This document shows, one piece after another, positions 7,758-21,538 of a DNA stretch of 64,000 bases (position 1 is the stretch's first letter; every line of letters starts with the position of its first letter). The stretch comes from Achromobacter aloeverae (lineage in GTDB: Bacteria > Pseudomonadota > Gammaproteobacteria > Burkholderiales > Burkholderiaceae_B): the NCBI RefSeq assembly GCF_004121055.1, contig NZ_PYAL01000007.1, positions 310,001 to 374,000 of the forward strand, given 5' to 3'. The notes beneath the pieces are model-generated. The model had not been told where the DNA came from. It was given only the letters and a program-made list of their open reading frames with translations, and made no database searches. A program made the translations under genes and the position numbers.

Positions 7758-8486
7758 CTAGACGGGCGTCTGTTCCACCCCGAGGCTGCGCAGCAGCCTT
7801 GCCCTGAGGGCGACGAAGGCCCCGTCGCCGGACTGTCGGGGATGGGGCAGGCCGACGACGTGATCTTCTTCGATACGGCCGTTGCGCAACACCAGCACGC
7901 GGTCCGACAGCATCAGCGCCTCGTCCACGTCGTGGGTGACCAGGATCACCGTGGGCCGCTGCCGCTCGACCAGGCGGAACAACAAGGCGTGCATGCGCAA
8001 GCGCGTCAGCGCATCGAGCGCCCCGAACGGTTCATCGGCCAGCAGGACGTCCGGCTCGCGCAACAATGACCGGGCGAGCGCGGCCCGCTGCTTCTGGCCG
8101 CCGGACAGGGTCGACGGCCACATCGTCGCCTTGCCGCCCAGCCCGACGGCGTCCAGCATGTCCAGGGCGGCCTGGTCGGCATCCGCGCGCCGCAGGCCCA
8201 GCTTGAGGTTCTCGATGACCGGCAGCCAGGGCAGCAGCCTGGCGTCCTGGAAAAGCACGGAGACGCTGCCCCGCACGTGCAGGCTGCCGGACGTCTCGGC
8301 GGCATCGTCCAGGCCCGCCAGCGTGCGCAGCAAGGTCGTCTTGCCGGAACCGGACTCCCCCAGCAGGGCGACGAACTGGCCGCGCGGCACGCTGAGCGAC
8401 AGCTGGTCCAGCACCGCCTTGCCGCCGAAGCCGCGCGACAGGCCGCGCAGCTGGACGGCGCTTTCCGTGGAAAAAGAGGCCGTCAT
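7758..8486 (-). CDS. ABC transporter ATP-binding protein, SsuB/TauB-like
   Basis: A 242-residue ATPase energising import of sulfonates, nitrate or taurine-like ligands. Walker A is GESGSGKTTLL, the Q-loop FQDARLLPW is the SsuB form, the signature is LSGGQKQR and Walker B is VLLADEPFGALD. The ATG at 8486 overlaps the stop of the permease gene in an ATGA arrangement, implying coupled translation. An upstream extension in the same frame lies wholly inside the permease gene and was rejected. It forms the importer with the next two genes in the transcript order binding protein, permease, ATPase. Confidence 0.93.
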   Translation of the reverse strand: MTASFSTESAVQLRGLSRGFGGKAVLDQLSLSVPRGQFVALLGESGSGKTTLLRTLAGLDDAAETSGSLHVRGSVSVLFQDARLLPWLPVIENLKLGLRRADADQAALDMLDAVGLGGKATMWPSTLSGGQKQRAALARSLLREPDVLLADEPFGALDALTRLRMHALLFRLVERQRPTVILVTHDVDEALMLSDRVLVLRNGRIEEDHVVGLPHPRQSGDGAFVALRARLLRSLGVEQTPV

Positions 8487-9376
8487 GATCCCAGCGTACG
8501 CCTGTAGGAGAGCGCGCGGCTTTCCAGCAGCCTGACCACCGCGTCCGAAGCCAGTCCCAGCGCCGCGTAGATCATGATGCCCACGACGATGATGTCGGTC
8601 TGCCCCCAATCCCGTGCCCGGTTCATCAGGTAGCCGATGCCAGTCTGGGTGTTGATGAGCTCCAGCACCACCAAGGCCGTCCAGCACAGTGCGACGGCCA
8701 GCCGCAGGCCGGTGAAGAACCCGGGCAAGGCGCCCGGCAAGGCCACCTTCCTGATGAACTCCCCTCGCGTCAGGCCCAGCGTCTGCGCCAGTTCGATGTG
8801 TCCGATGTCCATCCCCTTCAACGCGGCATGCGTGTTGATGTAGATCGGCACCAGCACCGACGTGAAGATGAGGAAGACCTTCATGGCCTCGCCTATGCCC
8901 AGCCAGATGATGGCCAGGGGGATCAGGGCCAGCGTGGGAATGGCGCGCTTGATCTGCACCAGGCCGTCGATCAAGGCTTCGCCGGTGCGCGTCAGCCCAG
9001 CCGCCAGCGCCAGCGCGACGCCCGCGACGATGCCCAGGAGCAGGCCGCCATAGGCGCGCGTGGCGGAAGCCAGCAGATGCGGCAGCAGTTCGCCGTCGGC
9101 GAACATGCGGGCCGCCGTGGCCAGCGCCTGGCTAGGCGCGCTCAAGGTCGACGGCGAAAGCCAGCCCAGGCGTGCGGCTCCCTCCCAGGCAAGCAAGGCG
9201 ATGAGCGGACCAAGCAGGCGCATGCCGGCCGGCAGCCGCCGCGGCGCGTAGCGCCTGGCGCCGGCGTGATGCGAGCCGGGCTCGCCCGCGGCCTCGGATT
9301 CCGCCGCGGATTTCGGCGCGGTTTCCGGATAGGCGCCAGCCTGGGTAAGGGAGGATGACAGCGAGGGTGGCGACAT
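8483..9376 (-). CDS. ABC transporter permease, SsuC/TauC-like
   Basis: A 297-residue inner-membrane permease of the BPD_transp_1 family. The first ~50 residues are polar and Ser/Ala/Arg-rich, longer than usual, before the first membrane helix (LLGPLIALLAWEGAARLG). The coupling region has LPGALPGFFTGLRLAVALCW, the EAA-loop form found in SsuC. IINTQTGIGYLMN-type residues and DIIVVGIMIYAALGL follow. The gene lies 27 bp after the binding-protein gene and overlaps the ATPase gene by 4 bp. The long polar leader could mean a start further in, but no clearly better site is visible. Confidence 0.92.
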   Translation of the reverse strand: MSPPSLSSSLTQAGAYPETAPKSAAESEAAGEPGSHHAGARRYAPRRLPAGMRLLGPLIALLAWEGAARLGWLSPSTLSAPSQALATAARMFADGELLPHLLASATRAYGGLLLGIVAGVALALAAGLTRTGEALIDGLVQIKRAIPTLALIPLAIIWLGIGEAMKVFLIFTSVLVPIYINTHAALKGMDIGHIELAQTLGLTRGEFIRKVALPGALPGFFTGLRLAVALCWTALVVLELINTQTGIGYLMNRARDWGQTDIIVVGIMIYAALGLASDAVVRLLESRALSYRRTLGS

Positions 9377-12547: not shown

Positions 12548-13237
12548 TTGAGCACGACCATCATCGACGCCCTGCGCGGCATCGACACGCCCACCGTCTG
12601 CAATGCCATGATCGTCATGGACCCCGCCTTGCGGGGCAGGAACTACACCCTCGACACCGTGGTCGCGGCCAATCCCGGCCTGCCGCCCTTCACCGGCTAT
12701 GCGCTGACCGCGAAGATCGTGTCCTCGCAGCCCTGCACGGATAGCCCCGAGGTGATGGCCCAGCGCCGCTACGCCTATTACAAATACCTGGCCGACGCGG
12801 GCCGGCCCACCGTCGTGGTCATGGAAGACTGCGGCAGCCGGCCCGGCGTCGGTTCCATCTGGGGCGAAATCAACGCGTCGCTGCACAAGGCCATGGGCGT
12901 GGCCGGCGTGGTGACCAATGGCGCGATCCGCGACCTGGACACGCTGCCGGCCGGCTATCAGCTGCTCGGCGGCAACGTCACCCCCGGCTCCGGCTTCGCG
13001 CACCTCGTCGATTTCGATACGCCGGTGACGGTATTCGGCCTGGCGGTGCGCCCGGGCGACCTGGTCCACGCCGACCGCCATGGCTGCGTCGTCATCCGTC
13101 CCGACCTGGTCGAGAAACTGCCGGCCGCCATCGCCCGCGTGCAGCAGCGCGAGTCCACGCTGCTGAAGGTGCTGAACGGGCCGGACTTCGACTACGACAA
13201 GCTCATAGCGGCCTGGCATCAGTTCGAAATAAAGTAG
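12548..13237 (+). CDS. RraA-family protein (HMG/CHA aldolase-like)
   Basis: A 229-residue member of the RraA/4-carboxy-4-hydroxy-2-oxoadipate aldolase family, which cleaves or decarboxylates oxo-acids using a divalent metal. RraA proteins that inhibit RNase E are shorter, about 160 residues. Visible features are the WGEI segment (105-108) and the TNGAIRDLDTLP motif, whose Arg128-Asp129 correspond to the conserved substrate- and metal-contacting pair. I chose a TTG start at 12548 because AAGGGGA lies 6 bp upstream and it gives the standard N-terminus. The upstream stretch 12352-12547 is non-coding and shared with the divergent ABC exporter. The 3' end overlaps the convergent acyltransferase gene by 19 bp. 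Confidence 0.85.
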   Translation: MSTTIIDALRGIDTPTVCNAMIVMDPALRGRNYTLDTVVAANPGLPPFTGYALTAKIVSSQPCTDSPEVMAQRRYAYYKYLADAGRPTVVVMEDCGSRPGVGSIWGEINASLHKAMGVAGVVTNGAIRDLDTLPAGYQLLGGNVTPGSGFAHLVDFDTPVTVFGLAVRPGDLVHADRHGCVVIRPDLVEKLPAAIARVQQRESTLLKVLNGPDFDYDKLIAAWHQFEIK

Positions 13238-14439
13238 CGCCCGCGCAGCACGGCATTGGCTGGATCCGAACACCTCCGGCCCACGACCGATGCCAACGCG
13301 ATGGACAGCGCGATATAAACCGCCAGCATCAGCAAGCGCCAGTCGCCCGCCACTTCGGCGGCCGGCCAGGCGGTCCTGGCCAGGCCCAGCACGAGCAAAT
13401 GCAGCAGGTAGAGTTCGTAGCTGCGCCGGCCGCAAGCCGCCAGCGCCCGCGCTATCCACCGCGCGGTTATCCACAGCGGCCGTGCCAGCCGGTGACGACC
13501 GGCGTACCGGCGCGGGCCCCGTCCGGCCTGCATCCGGCCTTCCCCCGCACCACAAGGAGCCGCTTCCTGCCTGCCGCGATCCTCGCGCCCCTCGGCGCCA
13601 AGCAGGAGCCACGCCGTCCCCAGCGCCATCGCCGTCACGCCCAGCACGTTGCTCTCGCCTATGGGCCATGCCAGGTACAGCACGGACATCGCGATCGCGA
13701 CCAGGGCGCGCGCCGCGCGCGTCCTCGGCAAACGGACGCCGCCGCGACGCGCCAGCACCGCGCCGCAGCAGCCGATGGCGATGGCGTCGAAGCAGGCCAG
13801 GTAACCGTACAGGTAGGCCTCCGCGTCCCCCTGGTGGGCCAGCCGGTACCATGGCCCGGCGCAAACGACCATGAGCGCCAGCACCGGCAACAGCCACCTC
13901 CGCTGACGCGCCAAGCCGATGCACAGCAAGGGGAACAACAGGTAGAAAACGAGTTCGACGGAAAGCGACCACAACACGCCCAGCGGATAGTTGACCCAGC
14001 CCACGCGCGTGATGAGGACGTTCATCCAGAACGTCAGCGCGGCGGCATTGACGGTCCACAGCGATACCGGCGCATCCACCCGATTGTCGAAGATGCGCAC
14101 CCCGGCCAACGCCAGCGTATCGACCACCAGCAGCACCAGCACCAGGCAGGGCAGGATGCGGGCTGCCCGCAAGACGTAGAAGTCGGCCAAGCGGATGCGC
14201 GCCAGGCTTCCCCAGCGCGCCAGCGCATTGCGCGTAATGAGGAAGCCGGACACGGCGAAGAACATCGTCACGCCGTAATTGCCGTTGCGCACGATCGCGT
14301 GCACCAGCGGCCAGCCCAGCCACGCGGCCAGCGTCGTACGTTCCAGGGAGTACGCGATATTGAAGTGATGCAGCAATACCAGCAGTATCGCGATCCCGCG
14401 CAGCGTATCGATGCGCCAGTCCCTTGCGCCGGAAGTCAT
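13219..14439 (-). CDS. Acyltransferase 3 (OafA/NodX-type) membrane protein
   Basis: A 406-residue multi-pass inner-membrane O-acyltransferase. Members transfer acetyl or other acyl groups to lipopolysaccharide, capsule or other extracytoplasmic sugars. The family signature is clear: DTLRGIAILLVLLHHF at the N-terminus with the conserved His pair, GVTMFFAVSGFLITRN, and LWSLSVELVFYLLFPLL. A hydrophilic loop near residue ~290 is Arg- and Gly-rich. The gene is codirectional with the beta-lactamase operon and starts 73 bp after it, so read-through is possible but no functional link is evident. Acceptor unknown. Confidence 0.88.
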   Translation of the reverse strand: MTSGARDWRIDTLRGIAILLVLLHHFNIAYSLERTTLAAWLGWPLVHAIVRNGNYGVTMFFAVSGFLITRNALARWGSLARIRLADFYVLRAARILPCLVLVLLVVDTLALAGVRIFDNRVDAPVSLWTVNAAALTFWMNVLITRVGWVNYPLGVLWSLSVELVFYLLFPLLCIGLARQRRWLLPVLALMVVCAGPWYRLAHQGDAEAYLYGYLACFDAIAIGCCGAVLARRGGVRLPRTRAARALVAIAMSVLYLAWPIGESNVLGVTAMALGTAWLLLGAEGREDRGRQEAAPCGAGEGRMQAGRGPRRYAGRHRLARPLWITARWIARALAACGRRSYELYLLHLLVLGLARTAWPAAEVAGDWRLLMLAVYIALSIALASVVGRRCSDPANAVLRGRYFISN

Positions 14440-14512
14440 GGGTTCGGCGTCACGGGCCGGCGTTCAACGGTGGCAGGCGCGTTCCGGCTCACACTCCGGC
14501 TCACACGCCGGC

Positions 14513-15358
14513 TCATTTGGCGCCGCTCCCCGCCGCGACCAGGCCAGGCAGGGCCTCGACCAGGCTGGCGCGGGCACGCAGGCCAGGGCTGGGCGTGGTC
14601 GCCTTCTCATCCTGGATCAGGCGGGCGAAAGCCACCTTGCGGCCATCCTTCTCCATCCAGCCCACGAACCAGCCGTAGGCCAGGCTGGCGTCGTAATGGC
14701 CATCGCTGCCCGGGGACCCGGCGCCCGTCTTTCCATACAGGCGCCAGCCGTCGGCGATCAGCCCCTGGTCCAGGATGCGGGTCGTCATGTCGTACGCATG
14801 CGCACTGACGGGCAGTTGGCGATTGACGATCTTCCGCATGAAATCGACCTGCTCGCGCGGCGATATCCGCAAGGAGGAAATGATCCAGGCCCCGTCCACG
14901 CCATCGTTCTTGCCCGGTTCTCCGGACACGTCCTCGTTGCCGAAATGGAATTTCGACGTGTATTCCTGGAAGCGCGCCTGCCCCAGCCGCCGGGCGACCT
15001 GCTGCGAATACCAGACGATGGAATACTTGATCCACCGCGCCGGCGTGGCGGGCTTGCGCCACTCCTCGCCACCCCAGTCAGGATAGCCGGGCTGGAAATT
15101 CCAGGCCGGCGTGTTCTCGTCCTGCAGGATACCGGCGTCGAATCCCATCAGGCTGATGGCGATCTTGAAGGTGGAAGCGGGCGTATAGCGCTCGCCGCAA
15201 GCCCCCTGTTCCGCCAGGACGCGGCCATCGGCGGCGTCGGCCACAAGGGTGCATATCGTGCGGGCCTGGGCCGGCGCGGCGTGGAAGGCGCAAGCGGCGA
15301 ATACCGCGGACAGGAACAGGGGTGCGGCGGCGGCGCGCAGCGTCGTGCATGACGTCAT
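14513..15358 (-). CDS. Class D (OXA-type) beta-lactamase
   Basis: A 281-residue serine beta-lactamase secreted to the periplasm by a signal peptide (cleavage near APAQA, residue ~32). All class D motifs are present: S62-TF-K65 (the acylating Ser and the Lys that becomes carboxylated), S113-I-V115, FGN at 139-141 in place of the commoner YGN, W158 in GAWIISSLRISP, and K210-TG. The YPDWGGEEWR and SGEPGKNDG segments recall the chromosomal OXA enzymes of Achromobacter and Bordetella (recognised from memory, not searched). It is the last gene of a blaI-sensor-bla transcript, starting 69 nt after the sensor gene, and lacks a strong ribosome site. Spectrum cannot be read from sequence. Confidence 0.95.
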   Translation of the reverse strand: MTSCTTLRAAAAPLFLSAVFAACAFHAAPAQARTICTLVADAADGRVLAEQGACGERYTPASTFKIAISLMGFDAGILQDENTPAWNFQPGYPDWGGEEWRKPATPARWIKYSIVWYSQQVARRLGQARFQEYTSKFHFGNEDVSGEPGKNDGVDGAWIISSLRISPREQVDFMRKIVNRQLPVSAHAYDMTTRILDQGLIADGWRLYGKTGAGSPGSDGHYDASLAYGWFVGWMEKDGRKVAFARLIQDEKATTPSPGLRARASLVEALPGLVAAGSGAK

Positions 15359-15427: not shown

Positions 15428-17164
15428 CTACGCGGGCTGCCGGCGCGCATTCAGCAGCACCAGCGTCAAGTCACGGTCGCGGACCTGCACGCGCATCACC
15501 AGGCACCGCCCCGCGCGCTCGGACGCGGCGGTCTTGGACAGGCGGATATCCCAGCCTTCCCGCCCGACCAGCGCATTGGTATTGCGATAGCGTATGACGC
15601 CGCCCGCCGCGTTCACGTCCTCATCCAGCGCGACGGTGTCGCGCACGATCGCCGGATAGGTCGCGGCCGCGCCGACGATGCGGGCGATATCGGAGGCGGT
15701 GGAACGGTTGGCGGACGACACGCCCGTCGGCTCCCGCAGCGTCGTGTGGGCCAGACCCAGCGCCAGCCGCTTGCGCTCCAGGGCCTGCTCGAATGCAGGC
15801 AAGCCGCCGGGGTAGCTGCGGGCAAGGGCATACGCCGCACGGTTGTCCGAGGCCATCAAGGTCAGTTTCAACAAGGTATCTCGCGTGGCCACCGTACCGA
15901 CCGGCAGGCGCGACATCCCTTCCCGGGTGGCGACGGCGTCCGCTTCCTCGATGCGCACCGCTTGCGTCATGTCCAGGTTGGCGTCCATCACCACCATGGC
16001 GGTCATCAGCTTGGTCAGCGACGCGATGGGCACCACTTCGTTTTCCGCCCGCGCCGCCAGCCGGCCGCCGGACCGGGTGTCCACCACCAGCACGTGGGCT
16101 GCGCCGCTGGTCTCGACCAGCGACTGGATGGCCGGGTAGTCCGCCAGCACGCCGCGACTGTCATCCGCGCCTGGGGCGGCTTGCGCACGGCCCGGGTCCG
16201 CCGCCGACCACAGGCTCGCGCCGGCCATGGCCAGGACGGCCGCCAGCAGCGACGCCGCCATGCTCCGGCGCGCCGCCACACGCGGATGCACCAGGCGGCG
16301 GATGCGGTCCACCAGCGGACCATGCTTCGCGCCCTGCGCGAGGCCCACTCGCGCATCGTCGTCGCCATGGTCGGCCGAGCGGCTCAGGGCATCCAGCGCG
16401 CGGGCCAGCCGGCGCGGATCGCCGACCAGGCCCGCCGCGATTTCATCCGCGATCCGCTCGCGCTCCACGCGGATGCGGCGCGACAGCCACCATATCGAAG
16501 GATGGAAGAACAACAGGGCCTCGATGCCGTGCTGCAACAGGTTCACCAGGAAATCGAGACGCCGCACGTGGGCCAGTTCATGTGCCAGCAAGGCCTCCAG
16601 CAGATCCGCGGGCATGCCCGTGACCAGGTGCGCGGGAACCAGGATCACCGGATTGAGCCATCCCGCCGTGATGGGAGTGGACAGGCCGCGCGCGATGCGC
16701 AGTCCCACCGTGCGGGGCAGGCGCAAGGCCTGCGCCATCGCGGCCATCCGCGTCCGCCATGCCGCGTCGGTCCACGGCGTACTGGCGCTCACCACGCGAC
16801 GCAGCCATGCGATGCCCAAGCCGGTGCGCAGCGCGACCAGCACGGCGCCGGCAAGCCAGCCGGCGGCCAGCCACACCGGCCAGTACGCCTGGACCGCTGC
16901 TGCCTGCCCACCGTCGGCACGCGCCATGCCTCCTTGCGCCAACGAGGCCAGTTCAATGCGATAGCCCTGCGCCACATCCACGGCAAACACCACGCCGCAC
17001 GCCAGCAACGCCAGGCACGACACCACGTAGCGCGGCCTGGGGGCGCCGGCGCGCAGCGACAGCAGCAGCCCCATGGCCACGGCGTGGATGCACAATCCCT
17101 TCCACAGGAACACGGGCAAGGTCTTGCCCAGGGCCCACGCGAACACCACGAGCGACGGGCTCAC
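15428..17164 (-). CDS. BlaR1-like M56 metalloprotease fused to an S11 penicillin-binding sensor domain
   Basis: A 578-residue membrane protein with BlaR1 topology but a different sensor. Three hydrophobic segments (about 5-35, 47-66, 95-118) precede the M56 zinc-protease domain with H195-E-L-A-H199 and a downstream ERIAD (236-240). A fourth hydrophobic segment at ~301-320 should place the C-terminus in the periplasm. Residues ~340-575 form an S11 peptidase domain like PBP7/PbpG: S382-LT-K385, S439-DN441, and K544-T-A546 where KTG is usual, followed by AGRCLVM. BlaR1 and MecR1 normally carry an OXA-like sensor here. GTG at 17164 overlaps the blaI stop (GTGA). Probable role: acylation by a beta-lactam activates proteolysis that relieves BlaI repression (inference from family). 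Confidence 0.88.
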   Translation of the reverse strand: MSPSLVVFAWALGKTLPVFLWKGLCIHAVAMGLLLSLRAGAPRPRYVVSCLALLACGVVFAVDVAQGYRIELASLAQGGMARADGGQAAAVQAYWPVWLAAGWLAGAVLVALRTGLGIAWLRRVVSASTPWTDAAWRTRMAAMAQALRLPRTVGLRIARGLSTPITAGWLNPVILVPAHLVTGMPADLLEALLAHELAHVRRLDFLVNLLQHGIEALLFFHPSIWWLSRRIRVERERIADEIAAGLVGDPRRLARALDALSRSADHGDDDARVGLAQGAKHGPLVDRIRRLVHPRVAARRSMAASLLAAVLAMAGASLWSAADPGRAQAAPGADDSRGVLADYPAIQSLVETSGAAHVLVVDTRSGGRLAARAENEVVPIASLTKLMTAMVVMDANLDMTQAVRIEEADAVATREGMSRLPVGTVATRDTLLKLTLMASDNRAAYALARSYPGGLPAFEQALERKRLALGLAHTTLREPTGVSSANRSTASDIARIVGAAATYPAIVRDTVALDEDVNAAGGVIRYRNTNALVGREGWDIRLSKTAASERAGRCLVMRVQVRDRDLTLVLLNARRQPA

Positions 17165-17556
17165 TGCTTGCCCTCGTCGCGCAACAAGGCCTCGATTTCG
17201 GCGCGGTCCTGCTTGCTCACCTGGCCTTCGCGCAAGGCGGCCAGCACCAGCGCCTTGCCCGAGCCGGCGAAAGCCTTGCGGATCAGGTCCCGCACCAACC
17301 CTCCCTGCGTCGCATTCTGGCTTTGCGCCGCGGCATAGACGTGGGAGCGTTCGCGCTCGTCACGATCGAGCAAGCCCTTGCCGTGCATGATCTGCATCAG
17401 CCGCAATACGTTCGCGTAGGTCAGCTCCGGCCGCGTGGGGGCCATGGCCGCATGCACCTGCTTGACGGTGGACGGCCCGATCTCCCAGATCGTTTGCAGC
17501 ACGTCGAGTTCGGCGCTGGTGGGTTTGACCGTCGGGAACGTGGACCGGGTGTTCAT
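17161..17556 (-). CDS. blaI: BlaI/MecI-family transcriptional repressor
   Basis: A 131-residue winged-helix repressor. The DNA-binding part covers residues ~10-80 (PTSAELDVLQTIWEIGPSTV, then YANVLRLMQIMHGKGLL and RSHVYAA), the standard BlaI pattern. The C-terminal third (LIRKAFAGSGKALVLAALRE) corresponds to the dimerisation helix region where staphylococcal BlaI is cut after induction. First gene of the operon; its stop overlaps the sensor start. The leader from the predicted promoter is about 75 nt and has no strong ribosome site. It most likely binds the TTCTAGAA palindromes at 17635-17669. Confidence 0.93.
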   Translation of the reverse strand: MNTRSTFPTVKPTSAELDVLQTIWEIGPSTVKQVHAAMAPTRPELTYANVLRLMQIMHGKGLLDRDERERSHVYAAAQSQNATQGGLVRDLIRKAFAGSGKALVLAALREGQVSKQDRAEIEALLRDEGKQ

Positions 17557-17634: not shown

Positions 17635-17669
17635 TTCTAGAATATTCTTTCTAGAAAATATTGTCTAGA
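17635..17669 (-). promoter_or_regulatory. blaI operon promoter with three phased BlaI-type palindromes
   Basis: Three palindromes with core TCTAGA lie at 17635-17642 (TTCTAGAA), 17649-17656 (TTCTAGAA) and 17664-17669 (TCTAGA inside GTCTAGAAC). Their centres are 14 bp apart. On the minus strand a -35-like TAGACA (17662-17667) and a -10-like TATTCT (17639-17644) are separated by exactly 17 bp, so the palindromes cover the whole core promoter. Repressor occupancy would block polymerase. The assignment to BlaI is inferred from position. Confidence 0.75.
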
Positions 17670-17808: not shown

Positions 17809-19005
17809 ATGCTGGACCCCCAGACCGTCATCGGTCAGCTGTACGACGCCGTCATGGACGAGGACGCCTTTCATCCCGCGGTGGCCGCGTGCGGGCAATT
17901 GATAGGTCAGAGCCACGGCGTCCTGCTGGCCTGGAGCGGCCAGGCGACCGACATGCCCGTCGTGGCCTCGCATTTTTCGTCGGACCCCGACCGGCTGCAA
18001 CGCTATTTGGCGGACTACGCGGCGTACTACCACTTGCTGGACCCCACCAAGGAACGCTGGCACGCGGCGAGCGAAGGGGACTGGCTGATCGACAGCCGCG
18101 ATCTCACGCCCGGCCGCTGGAACAGCCAGGCCTTCTACCATGACTTCGCCCAGCCGCTGGGCATGGACGGCTGGGCGGCCTTGAAGGTGGCTGCGGCCCG
18201 GCCCCAGGCCGGATCGCCCGAATGGGCCTTCAGCCTGCTGCGCAACAAGGACGACCCCTCTTTTTCCAGCGAGGCCCTGGCGCTGGTGAACCAGGTGCAT
18301 CCCCACCTGCAACGCACGCTGCTGCTGCGGCAACGCTACGCCGAACTGCGGCAGACCGCCGCCATGGGCCTGGGCGTGCTGGACCAGATCGCGCTGCCGA
18401 TATGGATAGCCGAAGCGGATGGCCGCCTGCGCCACGCCAACGCGGCCGCGGAAGCGGCGCAGCGGCGGCCCGGCTTCCCCTTGCGGCAGTCCGGCGGCCG
18501 CCTGCTGCTTCCCGACGGCCGCCTGCAAGCGGCCTGGGAAGCCCTCTTCCATCCCAAGGCGGACCATGCCGCCGGCGGCGGCCTGAACGTCCCCGCGCCG
18601 GACGGCCACGATGTGCTGTTGCAGGTCCTCGCCCTGCCGGCGGGCCTGGCCGCCTCGGGCAGCATCGAACGTCCCTTGCGCATGGTGGTCGCGCATCTAC
18701 GGAACGATGTGCTGTCCCCGTCCTGGCGGGCGATCCTGGCGGGTCTCTACGGCCTTACCACCGCTGAAATCGCGGTCGCGGCCGACCTGGCCCGCGACCA
18801 CACCGTCACGGAGATCGCCATGGTTCGCGGCAGCCATGTCGAGACCGTGCGCTCACAGATCAAGTCCATCCTCAACAAGACGGGATGCCGGCGCCAGGTG
18901 ACGCTGGTCAGGCTGCTTGACCGCCTGGGTGTCTGCGCCTATGCGGCGGACAATCAGCCCGGCAGCCCCAGCTTGCGAAACACGGCCCCGCGCACGCGGT
19001 CGTAG
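17809..19005 (+). CDS. LuxR-family helix-turn-helix regulator
   Basis: A 398-residue protein with a LuxR/GerE DNA-binding domain at the C-terminus (about 325-385: LYGLTTAEIAVAADLARDHT, then VETVRSQIKSILNKTGCRR). The first ~300 residues have a PAS-like look (LPIWIAEADGRLRHANAAAE around 205-225) and no recognised autoinducer domain. GGAG precedes the ATG at 17809. It is divergent from the bla operon, whose operators are 140 bp away, but I have no evidence that it takes part in beta-lactam response. The 3' end overlaps the convergent glycosyltransferase gene by 52 bp. Signal and targets unknown. Confidence 0.8.
   Translation: MLDPQTVIGQLYDAVMDEDAFHPAVAACGQLIGQSHGVLLAWSGQATDMPVVASHFSSDPDRLQRYLADYAAYYHLLDPTKERWHAASEGDWLIDSRDLTPGRWNSQAFYHDFAQPLGMDGWAALKVAAARPQAGSPEWAFSLLRNKDDPSFSSEALALVNQVHPHLQRTLLLRQRYAELRQTAAMGLGVLDQIALPIWIAEADGRLRHANAAAEAAQRRPGFPLRQSGGRLLLPDGRLQAAWEALFHPKADHAAGGGLNVPAPDGHDVLLQVLALPAGLAASGSIERPLRMVVAHLRNDVLSPSWRAILAGLYGLTTAEIAVAADLARDHTVTEIAMVRGSHVETVRSQIKSILNKTGCRRQVTLVRLLDRLGVCAYAADNQPGSPSLRNTAPRTRS

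Positions 19006-21472: not shown

Positions 21473-21538
<66 letters not shown>

Follow-up and report, generated by a model that had tools for sequence, protein, structure and literature searches.

A candidate BlaR-like receptor with a PBP7-like S11 sensor domain, encoded with blaI and a class D beta-lactamase in Achromobacter aloeverae

What does a receptor built on the plan of BlaR1 sense when its sensor belongs to another family of penicillin-binding proteins (PBPs)? The question is raised by a gene in a 64,000-nucleotide stretch of Achromobacter aloeverae (assembly GCF_004121055.1, contig NZ_PYAL01000007.1, positions 310,001 to 374,000; hereafter the window), which encodes an M56 zinc protease fused to an S11 domain of the PBP7 type and stands between the repressor gene blaI and an OXA beta-lactamase gene. 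We consider it probable that the product is a BlaR-like transmembrane receptor and governs induction through cleavage of a repressor: acylation of the sensor by a beta-lactam would lead to removal of BlaI and to expression of the beta-lactamase. The architecture of the receptor, its conservation, the gene order and the overlap of operator and promoter are directly established.

Results

Domain architecture and sensor type

The receptor matches Peptidase_M56 over residues 98-241 (E = 1.1e-23, 84.3 bits, Pfam cut-off 31) and Peptidase_S11 over residues 354-574 (E = 1.8e-41, 142.6 bits, Pfam cut-off 27.6), with the HELAH, SLTK, SDN and KTA motifs at the places listed in Table 1. The initial annotation had read the protein as a BlaR1 plan with an S11 sensor replacing the class D one, and this architecture stands. 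The top NCBIfam model is PRK11669, a PBP7-type D-Ala-D-Ala endopeptidase (E = 2.5e-58), but the score of 197.7 bits falls short of its equivalog cut-off (294); against blaR1_generic the M56 half scores 58 bits, below the curated cut-off of 400. Of the solved sequences, 6muq and 6azi, both PBP7 endopeptidases, come closest (approximately 1e-40), and among the best 60 of 100 solved-chain matches BlaR1 was matched over the M56 part (8exs, profile positions 89-278, E = 2e-12).

A class D-like sensor, the alternative that the initial annotation had named, was ruled out by profile comparison: a profile of five fused sensors matched six stand-alone S11 proteins with probability 100 (E = 8e-58) and the neighbouring OXA family with probability 0.1 (E = 0.61). 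An earlier mixed alignment (five fused and three stand-alone S11 sequences) agreed with the fused-only profile. The predicted fold of the sensor is likewise that of PBP7, in a model built from eight sequences, three of them stand-alone S11; the best 50 structures matched by this model include several S11 PBP-beta-lactam complexes, and no title among the 50 names a class D enzyme. A full-length model from five sequences was discarded as too poor (mean predicted confidence, pLDDT, 46.9). A simple hydropathy scan, blind to sidedness, gave four peaks ahead of the sensor (near residues 18-41, 47-65, 103-121 and 296-319) and also marked residues 377-395, which form the SxxK helix of the sensor. A search of the genome reported no other M56 protein, and found five S11 domains including that of the receptor.

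Table 1. Features of the receptor locus, in window coordinates
Feature	Position	Strand	Basis or remark
Receptor gene, M56 protease and S11 (PBP7-like) sensor	15428..17164	-	Single open reading frame, 578 codons, GTG start
Peptidase_M56 region, residues 98-241	16442..16873	-	Pfam
HELAH zinc motif, residues 195-199	16568..16582	-	Motif read
S11 sensor domain, residues 335-578	15431..16162	-	Predicted fold, PBP7
SxxK motif SLTK, residues 382-385	16010..16021	-	Motif read
SxN motif SDN, residues 439-441	15842..15850	-	Motif read
KTG-equivalent KTA, residues 544-546	15527..15535	-	Motif read
blaI repressor gene (Penicillinase_R)	17161..17556	-	Pfam; 3' end overlaps receptor start by 4 nt
Class D (OXA) beta-lactamase gene, 281 aa	14513..15358	-	Top models OXA-364, OXA-114 and OXA-258 families, under cut-offs
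Membrane acyltransferase gene (Acyl_transf_3)	13219..14439	-	Pfam; last cassette gene
Putative operator, three TCTAGA with 14-bp period, two TAGA-N8-TCTA dyads	17636..17669		Upstream of blaI
Sigma-70-like promoter TAGACA-N17-TATTCT	17639..17667	-	Inside operator

Motif conservation in the fused proteins

We had 18 fused loci in hand, the window's included, and 17 of them were complete. All 17 complete proteins retain HExxH (HELAH in 15, HEVAH and HELGH in one each) together with Glu236 and Asp240. The available part of PMC9834060 names His201, His205 and Asp246 in BlaR1, to which His195, His199 and Asp240 of the receptor would correspond (the offset of six is our own reading). The motifs of the sensor are equally constant, with SxxK in 17/17 (SLTK 15, SISK 2) and SxN, counted by alignment column, in 17/17 (SDN 15, SNN and SSN in one each). 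At the third S11 motif, 13 proteins have KTG and 4 have KTA, the window's among the latter. The initial annotation had suggested that the KTG-to-KTA change may favour a stable acyl-enzyme; since 13 of the 17 fused proteins have KTG, we reject KTA as the key to the sensor.

A few positions consistently set the fused sensors apart from stand-alone S11 domains, two by the active site among them. The middle residue of SxN is Asp in 15/17 fused proteins vs Glu in 36/38 stand-alone domains, and the residue four past the Lys of the third motif is Ser (14) or Thr (3) in the fused proteins vs Ile in 30/38. This comparison used 38 stand-alone rows, with L002, L003 and L043 omitted as far outliers and L068 and L069 omitted as nested within the fused clade.

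Distribution and phylogeny of the fusion

Full-length relatives of the receptor occur in 13 of 268 genomes of the family (its own and 12 others; a fourteenth is cut by a contig end), and three more, 41-43% identical, were found in 399 genomes of the order. A profile search of 369 genomes of the class (E up to 1e-60) found no full-length receptor beyond the own genome; the remaining matches were to the S11 part alone, or to the M56 part alone in G665, G693 and G791. The named full-length records of the contig collection (Achromobacter sp. HZ34, A. ruhlandii LMG 1866, A. dolens LMG 26840 and Bordetella genomosp. 1) were counted once, as already among the family genomes. One of 69 matching plasmid records is full length, that of Paraburkholderia caribensis. 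The receptor is therefore neither a chance nor a sequencing fusion, the latter having been a doubt of the initial annotation. The ratio of nonsynonymous to synonymous substitution rates (dN/dS) was 0.17 to 0.40 across both halves in four pairwise comparisons of five loci.

In the S11 tree, one clade (support 97/93) unites the 17 fused domains with two stand-alone ones (L068 and L069); the remaining 41 stand-alone domains sampled, among them those of the own genome, fall outside it. With L068 and L069 lying inside this clade, the fusion was not shown to be strictly monophyletic; a fusion-only clade was not rejected (approximately unbiased [AU] test, P = 0.314). In the M56 tree 15 of the 17 fused proteins group together (85/92), with L065 and L066 unplaced (AU test, P = 0.29). 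The products of the two nested stand-alone genes (L068:5808-6842 and L069:5817-6836) share about 50% identity with the sensor. The genomes concerned (G528 and G321) hold other M56 proteins, and sensor and protease may be separate there.

The M56 subfamily of the receptor occupies 15 places in 11 of the 399 order genomes, and four of these carry S11. Because related M56 proteins carry S11, TonB_C, class D or other C-termini, the C-terminal domain of the M56 chassis looks exchangeable. In G406 an M56 protein (L153:1294-2982) has a C-terminus that, in our own reading of the sequence, resembles HEAT-type repeats.

Gene order and linked beta-lactamases

The neighbours to which the initial annotation had pointed, blaI and a beta-lactamase gene, both adjoin the receptor in the window, where the order on the minus strand is blaI, receptor, OXA, acyltransferase. 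The overlap of blaI and receptor recurs in 16/17 complete loci, the exception being L065 (the start codon closest to the end of blaI was used). A beta-lactamase gene is next in line in 15 of the 18 fused loci; 14 are class D and one, on the P. caribensis plasmid, is annotated as class A and scores above the class A cut-off. The window OXA is above the class D equivalog cut-off (NF000270, 361.6 vs 280 bits) and below those of the OXA-114, OXA-258 and OXA-364 families (387-390 vs 600-625 bits). Several relatives exceed a family cut-off: L052 for OXA-258 (654.5 vs 600), L048 and L057 for OXA-364 (637.5 and 642.8 vs 625), L050 for OXA-1238 (661.5 vs 600) and L051 for OXA-114 (645.4 vs 620). The acyltransferase match is long in 10 of the 14 loci L044-L057, partial in L045, L049 and L053, and absent in L056.

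In the genus of G012 (43 genomes), 10 genomes have the receptor (nine whole, one cut), and it is precisely these 10 in which an OXA matches at E under 1e-110; six others have a distant OXA only and 27 have none at E 1e-20. The co-occurrence concerns a single locus, inherited or moved as a unit, and does not amount to ten independent events.

Other features of these loci were seen. In L056 the OXA gene (7760-8622) lies in two frames and looks broken; the blaI and receptor frames are open there. A TonB-dependent receptor gene lies directly 3' of the M56-S11 gene, replacing the beta-lactamase, at L064:6690-8972 and L066:7746-10016. On the other side of the window operator, about 140 bp away, a divergent gene (17809-19005, plus strand) has a weak PAS_4 match under the cut-off and no match in any of 20 loci compared. 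A 12-base repeat (2.8 copies) stands between the OXA and acyltransferase genes at 14483-14515, and at 21480-21537 a CAACAG hexamer repeat yields Leu or Gln runs in overlapping open reading frames.

Operator, promoter and BlaI

We examined the region upstream of blaI in 18 loci: every complete fused locus (17) and L067, which encodes an M56-TonB_C protein. At least two exact TAGA-N8-TCTA dyads are present in 18/18, paired at 14 bp in 17 (the spacing in L051 is 37 bp). In the window the dyad occurs nowhere else, and the stricter TAGA-N8-TCTAGA marks only the operator site in the whole own genome and is absent from two receptor-less genomes examined (G105 and G001). With the reversed pattern as a control, each strand of a genome gave 0 to 5 matches by chance, and a lone dyad therefore means little. 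In G566 (L111) a lone dyad stands some 50 bp ahead of an acyltransferase gene, the kind of gene that closes the window cassette; it was dropped as a target, lone sites being at the level of the reversed control. A lone dyad in G499 (contig 9), inside a gene, was taken as chance.

The dyads cover the predicted promoter in 18/18 loci. TAGACA-N17-TATTCT was found once vs 0.1 expected in shuffles, and it or a near form ranks first or second among promoter pairs in all 18; the promoter rather than the operator may account for part of the motif conservation. Since no dyad lies near the beta-lactamase gene in these loci, a single promoter probably serves the whole cassette.

All 19 BlaI rows aligned share F(A/S)GS(G/A)xALV. 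According to the available part of PMC9834060, S. aureus BlaI is cut at Asn101-Phe102. Our alignment of the window BlaI with S. aureus BlaI is weak (E = 0.0042).

Genome scan for the tandem operator

We searched the 399 order genomes for the tandem pattern TAGA-N8-TCTAGA-N8-TCTA by itself. It occurs at 17 places in 13 genomes, and the reversed control gave 0 throughout. Ten of the 17 places adjoin M56 genes: four M56-S11, four M56-TonB_C and two without a known C-terminal domain. The operator, being shared with M56-TonB_C and domain-less M56 proteins, thus marks a BlaI subfamily and not beta-lactam sensing as such. The two domain-less proteins under the tandem operator (L136:3786-5653 and L139:3119-5139) have a long C-terminal tail of MxxLGKxM-type repeats and no known sensor, and the stretches fetched around them held no BlaI match (E 1e-4).

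A further place, on contig 112 of G594, lies just upstream of a class C beta-lactamase gene (520 bits vs an equivalog cut-off of 415). This is the only gene over that cut-off in G594, whose M56-S11 receptor is on another contig, and a TAGACA-N17-TATTCT promoter, read by eye, points at it. The locus (L143:4448-5757) has a three-dyad BlaI-type operator and is divergent from a major facilitator superfamily transporter gene. This link in trans is suggestive only, because G594 is a draft of 87% completeness and 7% contamination. The same repressor, receptor and operator are linked to class D and class A beta-lactamases and also, though in trans and in a single draft genome, to a class C enzyme.

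Other places have other neighbours. On contig 35 of G610 the tandem operator stands before a blaI gene (L138:5347-5785) that shares 55% identity with that of the window, with no M56 match beside it in the stretch fetched. In G566, which has an M56-S11 receptor, an esterase-family gene (PF00756; L110:4175-5169) shares a tandem BlaI-type operator with a divergent gene. The places in G350, G304, G348 and G527 showed no evident target.

Discussion

Comparison with known systems

The locus resembles BlaR1/MecR1 with BlaI/MecI of S. aureus and Bacillus licheniformis in its M56 protease, its penicillin-binding-type C-terminal domain, the adjacent blaI and the beta-lactamase output. The membrane part of BlaR1/MecR1 has four segments, the last just ahead of the extracytoplasmic sensor, to which the four hydropathy peaks seen here may correspond. 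In both systems blaI and a beta-lactamase gene share an operon under an operator, in our case as judged from gene order and sites. It differs in its sensor (S11 here, class D-like there), its operator (TAGA-N8-TCTA), its Gram-negative host, the Phe of the BlaI cleavage site, which is not conserved here, and its low score against the curated model. We do not file the receptor as BlaR1, since it has neither a class D sensor nor a score above the curated cut-off. With PBP7/PbpG it shares the S11 fold and the SxxK, SxN and KTG motifs (the third being KTA in the window), and it departs from PBP7/PbpG in being fused to a membrane protease, in having mostly SDN for SEN and Ser or Thr for Ile after KTG, and in scoring below the equivalog cut-off.

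Closer to the host, the available part of PMC9045261 describes M56 and class D fusions in Oxalobacteraceae, which are likewise M56 receptors with a beta-lactam-type domain in Betaproteobacteria; their sensor is class D, whereas ours is S11. The M56-TonB_C proteins (L067, L134, L135 and L137) are 45-46% identical to the receptor in the M56 part and have the same tandem operator. Each has a neighbouring BlaI with 60-63% identity to that of the window, but the proteins end in TonB_C instead of S11.

AmpR-AmpC is another inducible chromosomal beta-lactamase system, as the present one is predicted to be. AmpR, a LysR regulator of the cytosol, responds to muropeptides, whereas the receptor described here would face the periplasm and act by proteolysis. 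In our literature searches, with subscription journals mostly outside them, neither an M56-S11 receptor nor a BlaR/BlaI pair for OXA-114-type genes was described.

Proposed mechanism and its alternatives

S11 PBPs are acylated by beta-lactams. We propose that a penicillin-type antibiotic in the periplasm would acylate Ser382 of the PBP7-like domain, and that the acylated sensor would, by analogy with BlaR1, activate the M56 zinc protease by way of the membrane part. The protease would then remove the BlaI encoded just upstream, which would otherwise occupy the dyads over the promoter of the blaI-receptor-OXA-acyltransferase cassette, and the release of BlaI would switch on the beta-lactamase operon. 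In a wider reading, to which we lean with rather less assurance, the protein is a new type of beta-lactam receptor: a BlaR-type repressor-cleaving protease has recruited low-molecular-weight S11 PBPs to sense the drug directly in the periplasm, giving an AmpR-independent induction circuit in Betaproteobacteria that is coupled to class D, A and C beta-lactamases.

Several observations weigh against this mechanism. The operator stands as well before genes for M56 proteins that end in TonB_C or lack a known C-terminal domain, and in the genome of L065 (G566) it lies between the esterase gene and a divergent gene without a Pfam match. L065 and L066 have neither an adjoining beta-lactamase nor an operator seen before one, and in L064 and L066 a TonB-dependent receptor is next in line. 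The two contigs of G594 may not come from one organism, given its draft state. The receptor is patchy, occurring in 10/43 genomes of the genus of G012 and in 2/6 of its own genus. The residue after the S. aureus BlaI cut aligns to Ala in 19/19 BlaI rows, and therefore a different cut site would be needed. Finally, OXA-114 is described, in a passage of PMC4245530 that cites its reference 1, as constitutively expressed in A. xylosoxidans.

Some of these points bear on whether the S11 domain senses instead peptidoglycan fragments or free stem peptides from wall damage, with beta-lactams acting indirectly, as through muropeptides for AmpR. PBP7-type enzymes act on peptidoglycan cross-links (textbook knowledge), some loci adjoin a TonB-dependent receptor or share the operator with an esterase and not a beta-lactamase, and the residues that distinguish the fused domains by the active site could mean a changed ligand. 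We nevertheless regard this alternative as unlikely: the acylation motifs are retained, and the linked outputs, which belong to three unrelated classes of beta-lactamase, favour a beta-lactam over a muropeptide as the ligand.

It is more improbable still that the S11 part is an ordinary membrane-tethered DD-endopeptidase, the M56 part does not signal and the operon is constitutive or otherwise regulated. The constitutive expression described for OXA-114 in the cited passage of PMC4245530 and the unconserved S. aureus BlaI cleavage residue would fit such a protein, but the 16/17 overlaps of receptor and blaI, the dyads over the promoter in 18/18 loci and the zinc motif, Glu and Asp retained in 17/17 proteins would not, nor would a fused S11 clade that holds just two of 43 stand-alone domains sampled. 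An artefact of frameshift or assembly error joining two genes is ruled out for practical purposes, being already refuted by relatives with one unbroken frame in 12 other genomes of the family, three of the order and one plasmid, and dN/dS is under 1 in both halves.

Implications

If the proposed induction by beta-lactams through the S11 sensor is true, the sensor of the BlaR system would be shown to be exchangeable, because a single BlaI subfamily and a single operator accompany related M56 proteins that end in S11, in TonB_C or otherwise. Achromobacter causes infections in people with cystic fibrosis, and its intrinsic OXA enzymes are species-specific, as stated in the available parts of PMC10893412 and PMC4245530. 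A receptor, repressor and operator upstream of such intrinsic genes would make their 'constitutive' expression regulated and would predict which genomes are inducible; the species-marker enzymes OXA-114, OXA-258 and OXA-364 of Achromobacter, called constitutive, would then be inducible under conditions not yet tried. The finding suggests an overlooked route for such bacteria to switch on resistance.
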